A stretch of DNA of 64,000 nt from Candidatus Poseidonia sp. (GTDB lineage: Archaea; Thermoplasmatota; Poseidoniia; Poseidoniales; Poseidoniaceae). The stretch lies in assembly GCA_016778305.1 (NCBI GenBank), contig JADHPT010000004.1, positions 1 through 64,000 of the forward strand. Reading direction: 5' to 3'. The notes below the pieces were generated by a model, which worked only from the letters and a program-made list of their open reading frames with translations, did not search any database and had not been told where the DNA came from. Made by a program: the position numbers and the translations under genes. Below, piece after piece: positions 49,472 to 54,185 of this stretch. Numbering within the stretch: the stretch's first letter is position 1; each line of letters opens with the position of its first letter.

Positions 49472-50401
49472 ATGTTGGACGGCCATCACATAGCAGTGGT
49501 CGTCCCGGCTCGTGATGAAGAAGAACGCATAGTCGAGGTGATTGAAACATTACCAGACTATGTTGATTTGGTGGTAGTCGTTGATGATGGTTCGAAAGAC
49601 CGTACGAACAAAAGGGCAGAAGAGGCCTCATCCCCATGCAAACTTGTGATACTAGAACATGGAGGAAAAGGGGTTGGATCAGCGATTGATCGTGGTCATC
49701 AGTACGTGCTTGAACATCTCACAAAGCCCTTTGTGAGTGCGGTCATGGCCGGCGACGGACAAATGAATCCAGAGGACCTCATGCCCGTCGTTCACCCGAT
49801 TCTCACGGGAGACGCCGACCATGTCAAAGGTAATAGAAGAGCCCACAGGGAGGGGTACAACCTCATGCCCGCTGCTCGCAAAAGGGCTTCATCCATCCTC
49901 GGGTTTTTCACGACGCTTGCATCTGGCCAGCCAATTGAAGATCCACAGTGTGGGTTCACTGCAACGAGTTCAGAAGTTCTTGAGTCATGGGATTGGAGTC
50001 GCTCATGGAAAGGCTATGGATATCCAAATTATTGGATTATCAACCTGTCTCGGCAGGGATGGAGAATCGCTCACGTCCCTGTTGAATCAATTTACAGGGA
50101 TGAGGTCTCTGGCATCAAAACCTTGCCCTTCTTTACAAAAGTCGGTGCAATGATGGCAATTGAACATCATCGTAGGAACCTAGCATGGCTAATACCCCGA
50201 AATCTAACACCTCACACACTCTTTGCCCTCCTGGCCTATGGCTTAGGATGGTCGGCTTTTTTGCCGATGGTGAGCAATGATCTTGAAGATGAATTGATGG
50301 CGAGAGGTGTCCCCATGATACTCGTTGGCGTCTTCTTTTGGTACATGGCGCACATTTTTGACCGTATGGCCGTTCGTATGCATCGGGAGTTGCGTTCATG
50401 A
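49472..50401 (+). CDS. Family-2 glycosyltransferase with C-terminal membrane helices
   Basis: A 309-residue enzyme. GT-A motifs are IAVVVPARDEEERIVEVIET, VVVVDDGSKDRTNKRA, the DxD in VMAGDGQMNPEDL and DPQCGFTATSSEVLESWDW. Two membrane helices (TLFALLAYGLGWSAFLP and MILVGVFFWYMAHIFD) close the protein. It likely acts on a lipid-linked acceptor at the inner face of the membrane. The ATG at 49472 starts the domain. Its stop overlaps the start of the parvulin gene (ATGA at 50398), so both are expressed together. Confidence 0.87.
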   Translation: MLDGHHIAVVVPARDEEERIVEVIETLPDYVDLVVVVDDGSKDRTNKRAEEASSPCKLVILEHGGKGVGSAIDRGHQYVLEHLTKPFVSAVMAGDGQMNPEDLMPVVHPILTGDADHVKGNRRAHREGYNLMPAARKRASSILGFFTTLASGQPIEDPQCGFTATSSEVLESWDWSRSWKGYGYPNYWIINLSRQGWRIAHVPVESIYRDEVSGIKTLPFFTKVGAMMAIEHHRRNLAWLIPRNLTPHTLFALLAYGLGWSAFLPMVSNDLEDELMARGVPMILVGVFFWYMAHIFDRMAVRMHRELRS

Positions 50402-50727
50402 GAAGGCTTGACAGGCGGAGAAAACCGCGTAAGGCTCATGTTCGCCATATTCTCGTAACTGGGAAACCCGAAGCTAAAATGATTCTGGAATCCATCCAAA
50501 CCGCGAAAAAACCACTCAAGGTTTTCCGGAAAATGGCGAAGAAGTATTCCAACTGTCCCAGCGGGAGCAAAGGAGGTGACCTTGGTGAATTCATTGAAGG
50601 TCAAATGATTCAAGATTTTGAAGAGGCTGTTTGGGCATCGGAACTCGAGACAGTACCCGAAACATTCATCAAAACACAATTCGGGTTCCACATTTTGTGG
50701 GTGCACAGCAAAGGCCAGCTCGAGTAA
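50398..50727 (+). CDS. Parvulin-type peptidyl-prolyl isomerase (PpiC)
   Basis: A 109-residue single-domain parvulin. The basic N-terminus (MRRLDRRRKPRKAHVRHILV) leads into the PpiC core: VRHILVTGKPEAKMILE, YSNCPSGSKGGDLGEF and TQFGFHILWVHSK. Parvulins catalyse cis-trans isomerisation of prolines during folding. There is no signal peptide, so it is cytoplasmic. It overlaps the glycosyltransferase gene by 4 bp. Two Cys-containing positions near the active site match archaeal parvulins. Confidence 0.9.
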   Translation: MRRLDRRRKPRKAHVRHILVTGKPEAKMILESIQTAKKPLKVFRKMAKKYSNCPSGSKGGDLGEFIEGQMIQDFEEAVWASELETVPETFIKTQFGFHILWVHSKGQLE

Positions 50728-50840: not shown

Positions 50841-51281
50841 TCACTCAAAGAATTGCCAGTGTCCATCGTCCAGTCGCAGCGCAAAACCTTCACTCTCTGC
50901 TCGCTCCATGAGTGCGTCTACCGAAATATCTGACTGATGTTGTTGGAGGGCGAGAAGGACACTCATCCTATCAATAACGCCGTTATCATCAGCCTTTTTT
51001 CGAAGATAGGCCATCAATGACCTCGGCGAGAATTCTTGAGTTGCTTCAAATGAACGATGATGTTTCTCTAATTTTTTACGAAGCGAGCCTCTGAGTTCTT
51101 CAGGAGTATTCGCAAGAGCAACCTCGATGTGGAGTTGGGGTGCGGAGTTCACCTCACAAACGACTTCCGTATCACGTGGAAGGTTTTGACCGCAATGAGG
51201 ACAACGTCCCTTTAGTGAACGGTGGCCAAAACACTGCTTACAGTGAGGGCAACGAATGACAAGCCATCTCTGTTCAGACAT
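50841..51281 (-). CDS. DUF1922-like zinc-ribbon protein
   Basis: A 146-residue protein. The N-terminus is a zinc ribbon (LVIRCPHCKQCFGHR, then GRCPHCGQNLPRD) like the archaeal DUF1922 family, followed by a strand (LHIEVALANTPEELRGSLRK). The C-terminal half is helical and charged (FSPRSLMAYLRKKADDNGVI) and ends with a small fold resembling a winged helix (SVDALMERAESEGFALRLDD). It is longer than simple DUF1922 proteins. Function is unknown; nucleic-acid binding is plausible. It lies 12 nt after the PvlArgDC-like gene. Confidence 0.68.
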   Translation of the reverse strand: MSEQRWLVIRCPHCKQCFGHRSLKGRCPHCGQNLPRDTEVVCEVNSAPQLHIEVALANTPEELRGSLRKKLEKHHRSFEATQEFSPRSLMAYLRKKADDNGVIDRMSVLLALQQHQSDISVDALMERAESEGFALRLDDGHWQFFE

Positions 51282-51293
51282 AGAGTTCCCCGA

Positions 51294-51977
51294 TCAGAGT
51301 GTGAAATCATGCTTATTTTGAGGTTGCCCCGGACGGCGCGCAGGCGCTGCTGGAGCCTTTATGTCAACTCGTTTCTTTGGCTCTTCAGCCTTTCTGGTAA
51401 GCGCTCCACGAATGGGGCCGGTCTTTGTCCGAGCACCAAGCGAGAGTGATTCAGGAAGTATCAATGCTGCAACGGCAACACCGTGGTGGTCTTGTCCAGC
51501 AGTGACTTCATCAACGGCAACATCGAACTGCAAAACTTCAAGATCACGACTGGCTAACCTTCGCTGGAGATTACGACGAAGGAGAAGCACGGTCTCTTCA
51601 TAGTCAAGATCGGTTGTGATCGTGGCGACAATCGCACACTCATCACCTTCAGGCGTAGTACAAGACGCCCATGCCACACCGGCTGAAGCAGTTGACCCGT
51701 TCCAAGCATATGCTGTGGCAAGGTGGCATTCAACCAACGAACCCATCGGGAGTGGGCGAGGAATCGTCACGCCAAATCCAAGTGGCAACATGGCCCCTTG
51801 AGCTTGAATCAAACGTACATCTCCGAGGCCCAGTTCGACCAAACCCTGGTCAAAGGCATCTTCTGCATTTTCACCCCAAGGCGCCACCGCAGTCATCAAC
51901 CATCCTGGGCAATCGGGGCCTCTTGCGGCTTGCATGCTTCTACACAAGCGCAACGGGTTCATGAATAACATGGTCAT
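51294..51977 (-). CDS. Pyruvoyl-dependent arginine decarboxylase homologue lacking the cleavage serines
   Basis: A 227-residue protein. AEDAFDQGLVELGLGDVRLI, LPMGSLVECHLATAYAWNG and the C-terminal HHGVAVAALIL align with archaeal pyruvoyl-dependent arginine decarboxylase (PvlArgDC). In the active family a Ser-Ser pair lies after LIR and is cut to make the pyruvoyl group; here the corresponding residues are Gln60-Gly61 in LIQAQGAMLP. Self-cleavage by the usual route is therefore impossible. A basic, proline-rich tail of about 45 residues (PKKRVDIKAPAAPARRPGQP) is extra. It may be a structural or regulatory relative. It diverges from a small membrane protein with a 9-nt gap. Confidence 0.75.
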   Translation of the reverse strand: MTMLFMNPLRLCRSMQAARGPDCPGWLMTAVAPWGENAEDAFDQGLVELGLGDVRLIQAQGAMLPLGFGVTIPRPLPMGSLVECHLATAYAWNGSTASAGVAWASCTTPEGDECAIVATITTDLDYEETVLLLRRNLQRRLASRDLEVLQFDVAVDEVTAGQDHHGVAVAALILPESLSLGARTKTGPIRGALTRKAEEPKKRVDIKAPAAPARRPGQPQNKHDFTL

Positions 51978-51986
51978 AGGCTCTTC

Positions 51987-52280
51987 ATGGCCAAGGCAAC
52001 ACGGGGCATTCTCATGTTGACGCTTTGTGGTGTGGTCGTTTTGGTTCTTTTGACCCTCTTTCAGGATAGTGAGTTTACACTTGCATTGGTCATTGCGACG
52101 CTTTTTATCACCGCTCTGGGCATTTTTTTGCTCGTACTAAATTCATCAAGACTGCACGAGCCTCAACACCTCGGAACAACAAAAGTCCAATCGGCTAGCG
52201 GACGAGAGGGCTCAGGATTAGCCATATCAGCTCCGGACCTACCGGACCCACTCGACTACGAACTTGATATCCCTCTGTAA
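51987..52280 (+). CDS. Small membrane protein (97 aa), unknown function
   Basis: The protein has two membrane helices (GILMLTLCGVVVLVLLTLF and LALVIATLFITALGIFLLVL) followed by a polar C-terminal tail of about 45 residues (LNSSRLHEPQHLGTTKVQSA). I do not recognise the family. Its start is 9 nt from that of the PvlArgDC-like gene, so one or both promoters must lie inside neighbouring coding sequence. Its end abuts the aCPSF1 gene with no gap. Confidence 0.6.
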   Translation: MAKATRGILMLTLCGVVVLVLLTLFQDSEFTLALVIATLFITALGIFLLVLNSSRLHEPQHLGTTKVQSASGREGSGLAISAPDLPDPLDYELDIPL

Positions 52281-54185
52281 TCAAAATAGACGAACTGTCT
52301 CAAGATTACTCGGGGCGAATGTCATACAACCGTACCGTTCACGCAGCGTAAGGCCGAGTTCGTTGCATTTCTGATAGTCTCCGTGATGGCAGATGATATT
52401 CTTAGGTGTTGGATTGATGCGATCAACGAAGTCAAGCAACTGTCGGCGATCAGAGTGTCCTGAAAATCCATCGATTGTGACCATTTCACAGCCAATTTTG
52501 ACAATCTCGGTTTTTCCATTGATGAGCATGGGGACTTCTCCGAATCCTTTCTGAAGGCGGCGACCGAGTGTTCCTTCTGCCTGATAGCCAACAAAGCAAA
52601 GTGAGTTGCGCTCTTCATGGGCCCAATTCTTGAAGTATTCCATAACGGGTCCTCCATTGAGCATTCCAGAGGTGGCCAAAACGATACACGGAGAAGTATC
52701 CATGATGATGCTTTCCCGGAGTTCGCGGCCTTTGACTGGCCTGAACCATTCACTTGTGAAGGGGTTTTCACCGTCGTTTTTGAGCAGCGACTTGCTCAGG
52801 CTCTTCGTCAGATAATTCGGGTGGGATGCGTGAATGGCTGTTGCTTCCTGAATCATTCCGTCAAGCCAGACCGGCACAGGTTTGACCGCTCCGGAACGGA
52901 ACAATTCGTCTATAGCGATCATCACTTCTTGACTTCTTCCAACAGCAAAGACAGGGCAGATCATTTTTCCACCACGCATCAGCGTGCGAGAAACGATATC
53001 TTGGAGTTCTTGATTGGCTTCTTGACGGGATGGTTGGTAGTCTCCAGAAGCTCCGTAGGTGGATTCAATCACAAGTGTCTCCACTCGTGGGAAACGGGTG
53101 TTGGCCGCGTCAAAGAGCCACGATTTCTCATACTTTTGGTCACCACTGAAGACGATGTTATGCCTTCCATCGGCGATGTTGAGGTGGACTGCAGAAGAAC
53201 CGAGAATATGGCCGGCGTTCGAGAAGGTCAACTTCACATCAGGAGCAATGTCTGTGGTTGAGTCCCAATCAACGTCAACAACGTGTTTCATGCACATTCT
53301 GATATCTTCCATATCGTAGGCAGAACGCTTGCCTTCTGCACCTCCAACTTTGAGGTAATCAGTTTGCAAGAGCAGCATCAGATCACGGGTAGGTGGAGTA
53401 CAATAGACGGGCCCTCGGTATCCGTACTTGAACAGAACTGGCAGCATTCCAGCATGGTCAAGGTGAGAGTGAGTGAGCACAACGGCGTCAAGTTTCTCGA
53501 GAGGAAGTGCTTCTGGAGCATTGAAAAACGGCATTGGATCAGTATCGGAAGCGATGTTGACACCAACATCGATCATGATTCTTGATTCATTCGTGGTGAC
53601 ATAGTGACACGCACGACCGACTTCTCTGTACGAACCTAATGCGGTCACACGAGCCCATGATGAACCTGGACGAGTCGGTCTGTGGATATTCAAACCAAAA
53701 TCCTTGAGGAGTTTACGTCGCTCATCTGCGAAGGACTGGCGGTACATTCGTATGTCGTGAACTGTCTTAGAAAACAACGGTGGTGTTCGTTCCACTTTGA
53801 CGGACCAACCTGTTTCGTCTCGGATTCTTTTGTTATTCTCGCCTTTTATCCCGATTGCTTTCCCGGGATGCTGACATTGAATTGTCACTTCTCGATAACA
53901 ACCGTCAAAGTACATCTCCGAAACCTCTGCATCTTTGGGAAGAAGATCTTCAATGAACTCCTTTGCATCATCCATCGGCATCATCTTGTCAATAGGCGTC
54001 CTGAGCACGATTTTTCGTTTGATACGACGCGCTATTTTTCCAATCAGACCATCACTGCCCGTGAAGGGCCCCATTTGCGAGGTAATGATGGCGATATTTC
54101 CCGCCTCGAGGTCGACGGTATATTCGATATTTCGTGGAATAATCTTTGCGATTTCATCCTTCAGTTGCTTGTAGGTCATTTGCAT
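52281..54185 (-). CDS. fttA: aCPSF1/FttA: KH-MBL-beta-CASP ribonuclease, transcription terminator factor
   Basis: A 634-residue protein with the full archaeal CPSF1 plan: two N-terminal KH domains (about 1-145, including GKAIGIKGENNKRIRDETGW), a metallo-beta-lactamase domain with the metal motif VLTHSHLDHAGMLPVLFKYG, and a beta-CASP domain with VFAVGRSQEVMIAI and ATSGMLNGGP; the final histidine motif is DGFSGHSDRRQLLDF. In archaea it cleaves nascent RNA and terminates transcription. GGTGA precedes the ATG at 54185. Palindromes lie just upstream. It sits after the proteasome beta gene on the same strand. Confidence 0.95.
   Translation of the reverse strand: MQMTYKQLKDEIAKIIPRNIEYTVDLEAGNIAIITSQMGPFTGSDGLIGKIARRIKRKIVLRTPIDKMMPMDDAKEFIEDLLPKDAEVSEMYFDGCYREVTIQCQHPGKAIGIKGENNKRIRDETGWSVKVERTPPLFSKTVHDIRMYRQSFADERRKLLKDFGLNIHRPTRPGSSWARVTALGSYREVGRACHYVTTNESRIMIDVGVNIASDTDPMPFFNAPEALPLEKLDAVVLTHSHLDHAGMLPVLFKYGYRGPVYCTPPTRDLMLLLQTDYLKVGGAEGKRSAYDMEDIRMCMKHVVDVDWDSTTDIAPDVKLTFSNAGHILGSSAVHLNIADGRHNIVFSGDQKYEKSWLFDAANTRFPRVETLVIESTYGASGDYQPSRQEANQELQDIVSRTLMRGGKMICPVFAVGRSQEVMIAIDELFRSGAVKPVPVWLDGMIQEATAIHASHPNYLTKSLSKSLLKNDGENPFTSEWFRPVKGRELRESIIMDTSPCIVLATSGMLNGGPVMEYFKNWAHEERNSLCFVGYQAEGTLGRRLQKGFGEVPMLINGKTEIVKIGCEMVTIDGFSGHSDRRQLLDFVDRINPTPKNIICHHGDYQKCNELGLTLRERYGCMTFAPSNLETVRLF

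Follow-up and report, generated by a model that had tools for sequence, protein, structure and literature searches.

The window analysed here, a 64,000-nucleotide stretch of a Candidatus Poseidonia sp. contig, contains an open frame of 227 aa (51294-51977, minus strand) whose product resembles the self-processing enzyme PvlArgDC and lacks the serines from which the pyruvoyl group of that enzyme is formed. What such a protein can still do, and why an archaeal order has kept it, is the question that this locus raises. We refer to this non-catalytic PvlArgDC homologue and its relatives as FAM.

Fold, cleavage site and conservation of FAM

The likely real start of FAM in the window is Met15 at 51935, giving a protein of 213 aa, because the frames of four homologues from the same genus (L010-L013) open a few residues ahead of this Met without containing an earlier one. 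The Pfam profile PF01862 matched the window protein with an E of 5.5e-4 and 20.3 bits, slightly below its curated cut-off of 22.7, and TIGR00286 gave 24.8 bits, far below its cut-off of 106.95. Nine relatives of FAM do pass the PF01862 cut-off, and labelling these Poseidoniales genes as arginine decarboxylases would be a wrong annotation.

The core of FAM was modelled by AlphaFold2 with a pLDDT of at least 88 per block. VIA-align superimposed it on the PvlArgDC structure 2qqd from M. jannaschii with a Z of 20.6 and an rmsd of 1.7 over 147 residues at 24% identity, the next rows being histidine decarboxylase (Z 6.7) and unrelated proteins (Z at most 5.9). Foldseek concurred (E 3.1e-12), and the PvlArgDC fold that a preliminary description of this sequence had assigned is thus conserved. 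The last 46 residues (182-227; model residues 158-203) had a pLDDT below 50 and are predicted to be disordered. The basic tail mentioned in that description proved to be real: residues 177-227 (51297-51449, minus strand), mostly predicted to be disordered and ending in [DNSQ]-F-x-[LFMI], carried a net charge of +1 to +9, which was positive in all 50 aligned FAM rows.

Gln60-Gly61 (51795-51800) had been described as replacing the Ser-Ser cleavage site. Using phmmer, we found that these two residues indeed pair with Ser52-Ala53 of 1n2m, the S53A structure of the M. jannaschii enzyme whose native site is Ser52-Ser53. A better alignment, made with 40 closer PvlArgDCs from the same phylum, placed Gln60-Gly61-Ala62 (51792-51800, minus strand) against Ser-Ser, with one residue extra. 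In neither alignment did a serine of FAM fall at the cleavage site, nor did a Thr or Cys, and none of these three residues occurred at positions 57-66 in any of the 50 aligned rows (a set that includes the window itself and holds genome G008 twice, as L022 and L032; the row of L050 is partly masked (X) and gapped, which leaves n=49 at some positions). All 50 rows have Gly-Ala at residues 61-62, with Q in 25, K in 12, E in 12 and R in one at residue 60, and [Q/K/R]-G stood at the cleavage site in 80 of 80 named loci. Sequencing error or chance is ruled out, because the change is seen across the 50 rows and the 80 named loci.

The change extends beyond the cleavage site. Asn, Ser-Ser, Glu and His are invariant in the 40 Thermoplasmatota PvlArgDCs, and all five polar positions are altered in FAM. 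Arg55 (51813-51815, minus strand) occupies the position of Asn47 in M. jannaschii numbering, being Arg in 50 of 50 FAM rows and Asn in 40 of 40 PvlArgDCs; Thr119 (51621-51623, minus strand) takes the place of the invariant Glu109 of M. jannaschii (T in 40, S in seven and K in two of 49 rows), and the His two residues past Glu109 has become Ser, Thr or Ala in 49 of 49. We take Asn47 and Glu109 of the M. jannaschii enzyme to have catalytic roles, and mutants of both are named in the titles of structures that matched. Asp43 (51849-51851, minus strand) is the equivalent of Asp35, a position at which PvlArgDCs have Asp or Glu and which presumably binds the guanidinium group; FAM retains Asp there in 50 of 50 rows. 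Glu83-Cys84-His85 (51723-51731, minus strand) was likewise invariant in 50 of 50; Cys84 is common to 15 of 16 short-form PvlArgDCs, and Glu83 and His85 are new in FAM.

The FAM gene was detected in 14 of 21 genera of Poseidoniales and in 84 of the 145 genomes. Among named genomes, a scan turned up 191 relatives, from which 80 loci were kept; these counts are not independent, the named loci possibly coming from the same assemblies as other genomes counted. The kept loci were labelled Poseidoniales, Poseidoniaceae, Poseidonia or euryarchaeote MAGs, with the single exception of a Rhodobiaceae label. That locus, L128 (CALDQY010000278.1, "Rhodobiaceae bacterium MAG"), carries FAM at 80% identity and is probably a misbinned Poseidoniales contig. 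Identity to the FAM of the window ranged from 57 to 98% across the relatives, and 55 positions were invariant across the 50 rows. Of 105 same-genus pairs, 17 had a dS <2 in the core, and their median dN/dS was 0.024 (24 of the 105 were usable for the tail; the remainder were saturated), indicating strong purifying selection. Together with the loss of Ser-Ser, Asn, Glu and His, this gives good support to the earlier claim that the protein cannot self-process and is a dead or repurposed decarboxylase.

SpeD-family genes and the search for a second PvlArgDC

The preliminary description had further proposed that FAM is the partner of another PvlArgDC, to be sought as a serine-bearing copy; no such copy was found across 140 genomes of the order, and this part of the proposal fell. 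A PF01862 search of the own genome of the window (94.4% complete) gave no match, and the nine matches above the cut-off in the 140 genomes were all, by their position, FAM in relatives. A live homologous enzyme of the kind that a prozyme accompanies was thus found neither in the own genome nor in the 140 genomes of the order. Nine weak PF01862 matches elsewhere (E 0.007-0.225; six of them in frames of 389-430 aa) were set aside as chance.

A SpeD-family gene was detected in 130 of the 140 genomes and in 21 of 21 genera, at one place in each genome and at two in G029; the ten genomes with no SpeD match were 79-93% complete. In the own genome, the SpeD gene (AdoMet_dc) is flanked by an arginase-family gene on one side and a deoxyhypusine-synthase-family gene on the other, which corresponds to speB-speD-speY, and spermidine synthase had no match there. 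According to the accessible part of PMC10407285, speB, speDA and speY cluster in marine group II/III and Poseidoniales, and two SpeD proteins of marine group II/Poseidoniales (DAC51064 and AIF02979) were assayed as L-arginine decarboxylases and named SpeDA. The same part of that paper reports that the two SpeD proteins fail to restore spermidine synthesis and that SpeDA proteins are active on expression in E. coli. Given this gene cluster and the absence of a spermidine synthase match, the SpeD of the window genome is probably a SpeDA. The own genome also encodes TiaS, which uses agmatine. The term "PvlArgDC" is absent from the accessible part of PMC10407285, and a full-text search of the literature on marine group II arginine decarboxylase or Poseidoniales agmatine yielded nothing beyond this paper.

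Variants of the SpeD gene were also seen. At L170:3923-5236 (+), SpeD-family and deoxyhypusine-synthase-family (SpeY-like) domains are fused in one frame of 438 aa, and in other genomes, belonging to genera g4, g6, g7, g9 and g10, long frames (~430-500 aa) surround the SpeD match.

The zinc-ribbon neighbour and the age of the pair

Twelve bases downstream of FAM lies a gene for a protein of 146 aa with a zinc ribbon and a winged helix (50841-51281, minus strand), which we call ZNR. It was found directly 3' of FAM on the same strand at 128 of 130 loci, and at the other two (L119 and L135) the contig runs out before ZNR would be reached. The conserved neighbour of FAM is therefore a zinc-ribbon/winged-helix gene and not a second decarboxylase. 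ZNR was predicted with a mean pLDDT of 90. The nearest structural match of its winged helix was the one in MCM8, with a Z of 9.0 and an rmsd of 2.1 over 64 residues; this domain is a common one, and a Z of 8-9 is a modest similarity. The ZNR of the window matched no Pfam family at E 0.01; among 22 ZNR members, MRNIP matched three (best 1.4e-7) and DUF5817 one, and DUF5817 was above its cut-off in three of four ZNR homologues that adjoin serine-bearing PvlArgDCs. A full-text literature search returned no paper for the labels DUF5817 or COG3364, the latter being a label that we assume. Identity to the ZNR of the window was 22-44% in 20 of 21 rows and 78% in one, so that ZNR is much less conserved than FAM (22-78% vs 57-98%, in row sets that overlap and are not identical).

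On the other side of FAM, an FttA/aCPSF1-type beta-CASP ribonuclease gene (52281-54185, minus strand) is a common upstream neighbour in the order. Between FttA and FAM there is a small ORF of 97 aa (51987-52280, plus strand), membrane-like by sequence and with no family match of note. Across 100 loci, the upstream FttA and a proteasome gene were common and sometimes rearranged, and the FAM-ZNR pair was intact. At some loci a parvulin-type PPIase gene (PF13616, E 6.9e-17; 50398-50727 in the window) follows shortly after ZNR, on the other strand.

ZNR was found in 136 of the 140 genomes of the order, including the seven genera of the second family in which FAM was not found. In the first family, FAM had no match in G093, G116 and G142 (82-85% complete). 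We searched 15 loci of the seven genera (L194-L208) for a diverged copy of FAM upstream of ZNR and found none, the best match having an E of 1.1. At 13 of these 15 loci, FttA is followed by a gap of ~300 bases between frames and then by ZNR; L196 has an additional ORF of 408 aa in between, and L199 stops at a contig end. The results showed that FAM is dispensable in the seven genera and that ZNR does not depend on FAM, because ZNR persists there. FAM would have been lost in these genera rather than gained elsewhere, since the two families carry it in the same position. The seven genera without FAM are small-genome genera.

The pairing is not confined to Poseidoniales. Outside the order, ZNR stood directly downstream at 31 of 42 short-form PvlArgDC loci and at 0 of 31 long-form loci (the latter drawn from 26 genomes), the 31 of 42 being obtained with an iterated ZNR profile trained on its own matches. 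A profile built from Poseidoniales only recovered ZNR at 22 of the 42 short-form loci and matched nowhere else among 2449 ORFs; the iterated profile left eleven of the 42 with no adjacent ZNR. The N..SS pattern was present in 42 of 42 short-form genes, including all 31 with ZNR. When whole genomes were searched with profile A3, to which 8 of these loci contributed rows, ZNR adjoined PvlArgDC at the same places, within a few bases in G277 and G279, for example. Profile A3 also matches frames of ~690-880 aa over the winged-helix part, perhaps MCM C-termini. ZNR-like matches with no PvlArgDC neighbour are widespread in the phylum (174 of 236 genomes), and the weak ones are probably other winged helices. 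In the same class outside the order (f3), PvlArgDC occurs in five genomes, in the long form in the three that were read, and the ZNR-like matches in these genomes lie elsewhere.

At the two short-form pair loci looked at, the upstream gene differs. FttA was not found within up to ~4 kb of PvlArgDC at 14 loci outside the order; therefore, only the link with ZNR is old. The PvlArgDC-ZNR pair probably predates the inactivation, because serine-bearing short forms elsewhere in the phylum share the ZNR pairing. A tree of 93 rows, left unrooted, placed FAM as a single clade (100/100) on the side of the short forms, and its exact sister is uncertain because the stem branch of FAM is very long. The nearest row to FAM in this tree, with a long stem between, is L236 (G151), a divergent short-form PvlArgDC with no adjacent ZNR.

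Possible roles of FAM and comparison with known systems

We consider it probable, with some reserve, that FAM is a pseudoenzyme that arose in place from a short-form PvlArgDC and was retained for a non-catalytic role with ZNR. An enzyme with a different chemistry has to be weighed against this. It seems unlikely to us that FAM is a neofunctionalised enzyme in which Glu83, His85, Cys84 and Arg55 form a new active site on the PvlArgDC fold. At residues 83, 85 and 55, all 50 rows have Glu, His and Arg, whereas PvlArgDC has mostly H/F/Y, V and N; the dN/dS is very low, and new residues conserved so strictly would be compatible with a new enzymatic activity as well. However, they may be structural or interface residues, the tight link with ZNR is left without explanation, and we know of no activity for a PvlArgDC fold that lacks pyruvoyl. 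The proposal that the pyruvoyl is now made from Cys84 at Glu83-Cys84, and that FAM is still a pyruvoyl decarboxylase, is highly improbable. Its appeal lies in the invariant Glu-Cys-His (50/50), which resembles the Glu-Ser-His of the SpeD homologue in the own genome, and in the occurrence of Cys-derived pyruvoyl in proline and glycine reductases. We rejected Cys84 in this role because it is old, 15 of 16 short-form PvlArgDCs carrying the same Cys beside Ser-Ser; it also lies within a long predicted strand, the invariant Glu and His of PvlArgDC are lost as well, and SpeDA would already supply the activity.

The SpeD fold differs from the PvlArgDC fold, FAM lies outside the speD cluster in the own genome, and SpeD is also present in the genera without FAM, all of which makes it very unlikely that FAM is a prozyme-like activator of SpeDA, comparable to the dead partner that activates trypanosome AdoMetDC. 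FAM is nevertheless the inactive relative of an enzyme of polyamine synthesis, found in organisms where SpeDA would do the job, and the accessible part of PMC5201418 establishes for a pyruvoyl enzyme that a prozyme can act in this way; against this, the published SpeDA is active in E. coli (PMC10407285, accessible part). It is barely credible that FAM is a decaying pseudogene on its way out, for which the PvlArgDC of Chlamydia trachomatis is the comparison case, as far as the accessible part of PMC2720952 goes. FAM is missing from seven genera, but its dN/dS of 0.024, the 55 invariant positions in 50 rows and its presence in 84 of 145 genomes speak against decay, and neither relaxed constraint nor a broken frame was found.

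If FAM is a pseudoenzyme retained with ZNR, the ancestor of Poseidoniales may have handed arginine decarboxylation over to SpeDA, together with agmatinase and SpeY. PvlArgDC would afterwards have been stripped, in place, of Ser-Ser, of Asn47 and Glu109, and of the His that stands two residues past Glu109. FAM would then have been kept with ZNR, its biochemical role most likely being that of an oligomeric scaffold or of a sensor for an arginine- or agmatine-type ligand, and the disordered C-terminal tail with its conserved Phe may serve as a docking segment. We infer this order of events, and with it ligand sensing, docking and a physical contact with ZNR; the adjacency of FAM and ZNR taken alone can reflect co-expression without contact. 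By this reading, an enzyme known from textbooks for its self-processing would have become, in much of an order of abundant marine archaea, a conserved protein without enzymatic function that still adjoins its long-standing partner gene, and a different enzyme carries out the reaction in these genomes. More tentatively, short-form PvlArgDC itself may possess a second, non-catalytic function with a nucleic-acid-binding ZNR, for example in an arginine- or polyamine-gated complex, of which Poseidoniales lost the catalysis and kept the complex. This is a possibility to which we give rather less credence; if it is true, Poseidoniales expose a hidden second function of PvlArgDC from which the catalytic one has gone. 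FAM offers a directly testable case for such a function, with the DUF5817-like ZNR as the candidate partner.

Among known systems, FAM is most similar to PvlArgDC (PF01862, TIGR00286; 1n2m/2qqd), with which it shares the fold (Z 20.6), the equivalent of Asp35 and, with many short-form enzymes of the phylum, the pairing with a ZNR gene. It differs from PvlArgDC in lacking Ser-Ser, Asn47, Glu109 and the following His, in one extra residue at the site, in its basic disordered tail and in scoring below both curated cut-offs. SpeDA, as described in the accessible part of PMC10407285, performs the reaction that the ancestor of FAM presumably carried out, whereas its family and its locus (speB-speD-speY) are different. 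The prozyme of trypanosome AdoMetDC, as the accessible part of PMC5201418 presents it, is like FAM a dead, unprocessed relative of a polyamine pyruvoyl enzyme kept by selection, but it has a live paralogue as its partner, and for FAM none was found. As for ZNR, some of its homologues match the DUF5817 and MRNIP zinc ribbons, the ZNR of the window matching no Pfam family at E 0.01, and its winged helix is closest to that of MCM8, at the modest Z of 9.0.
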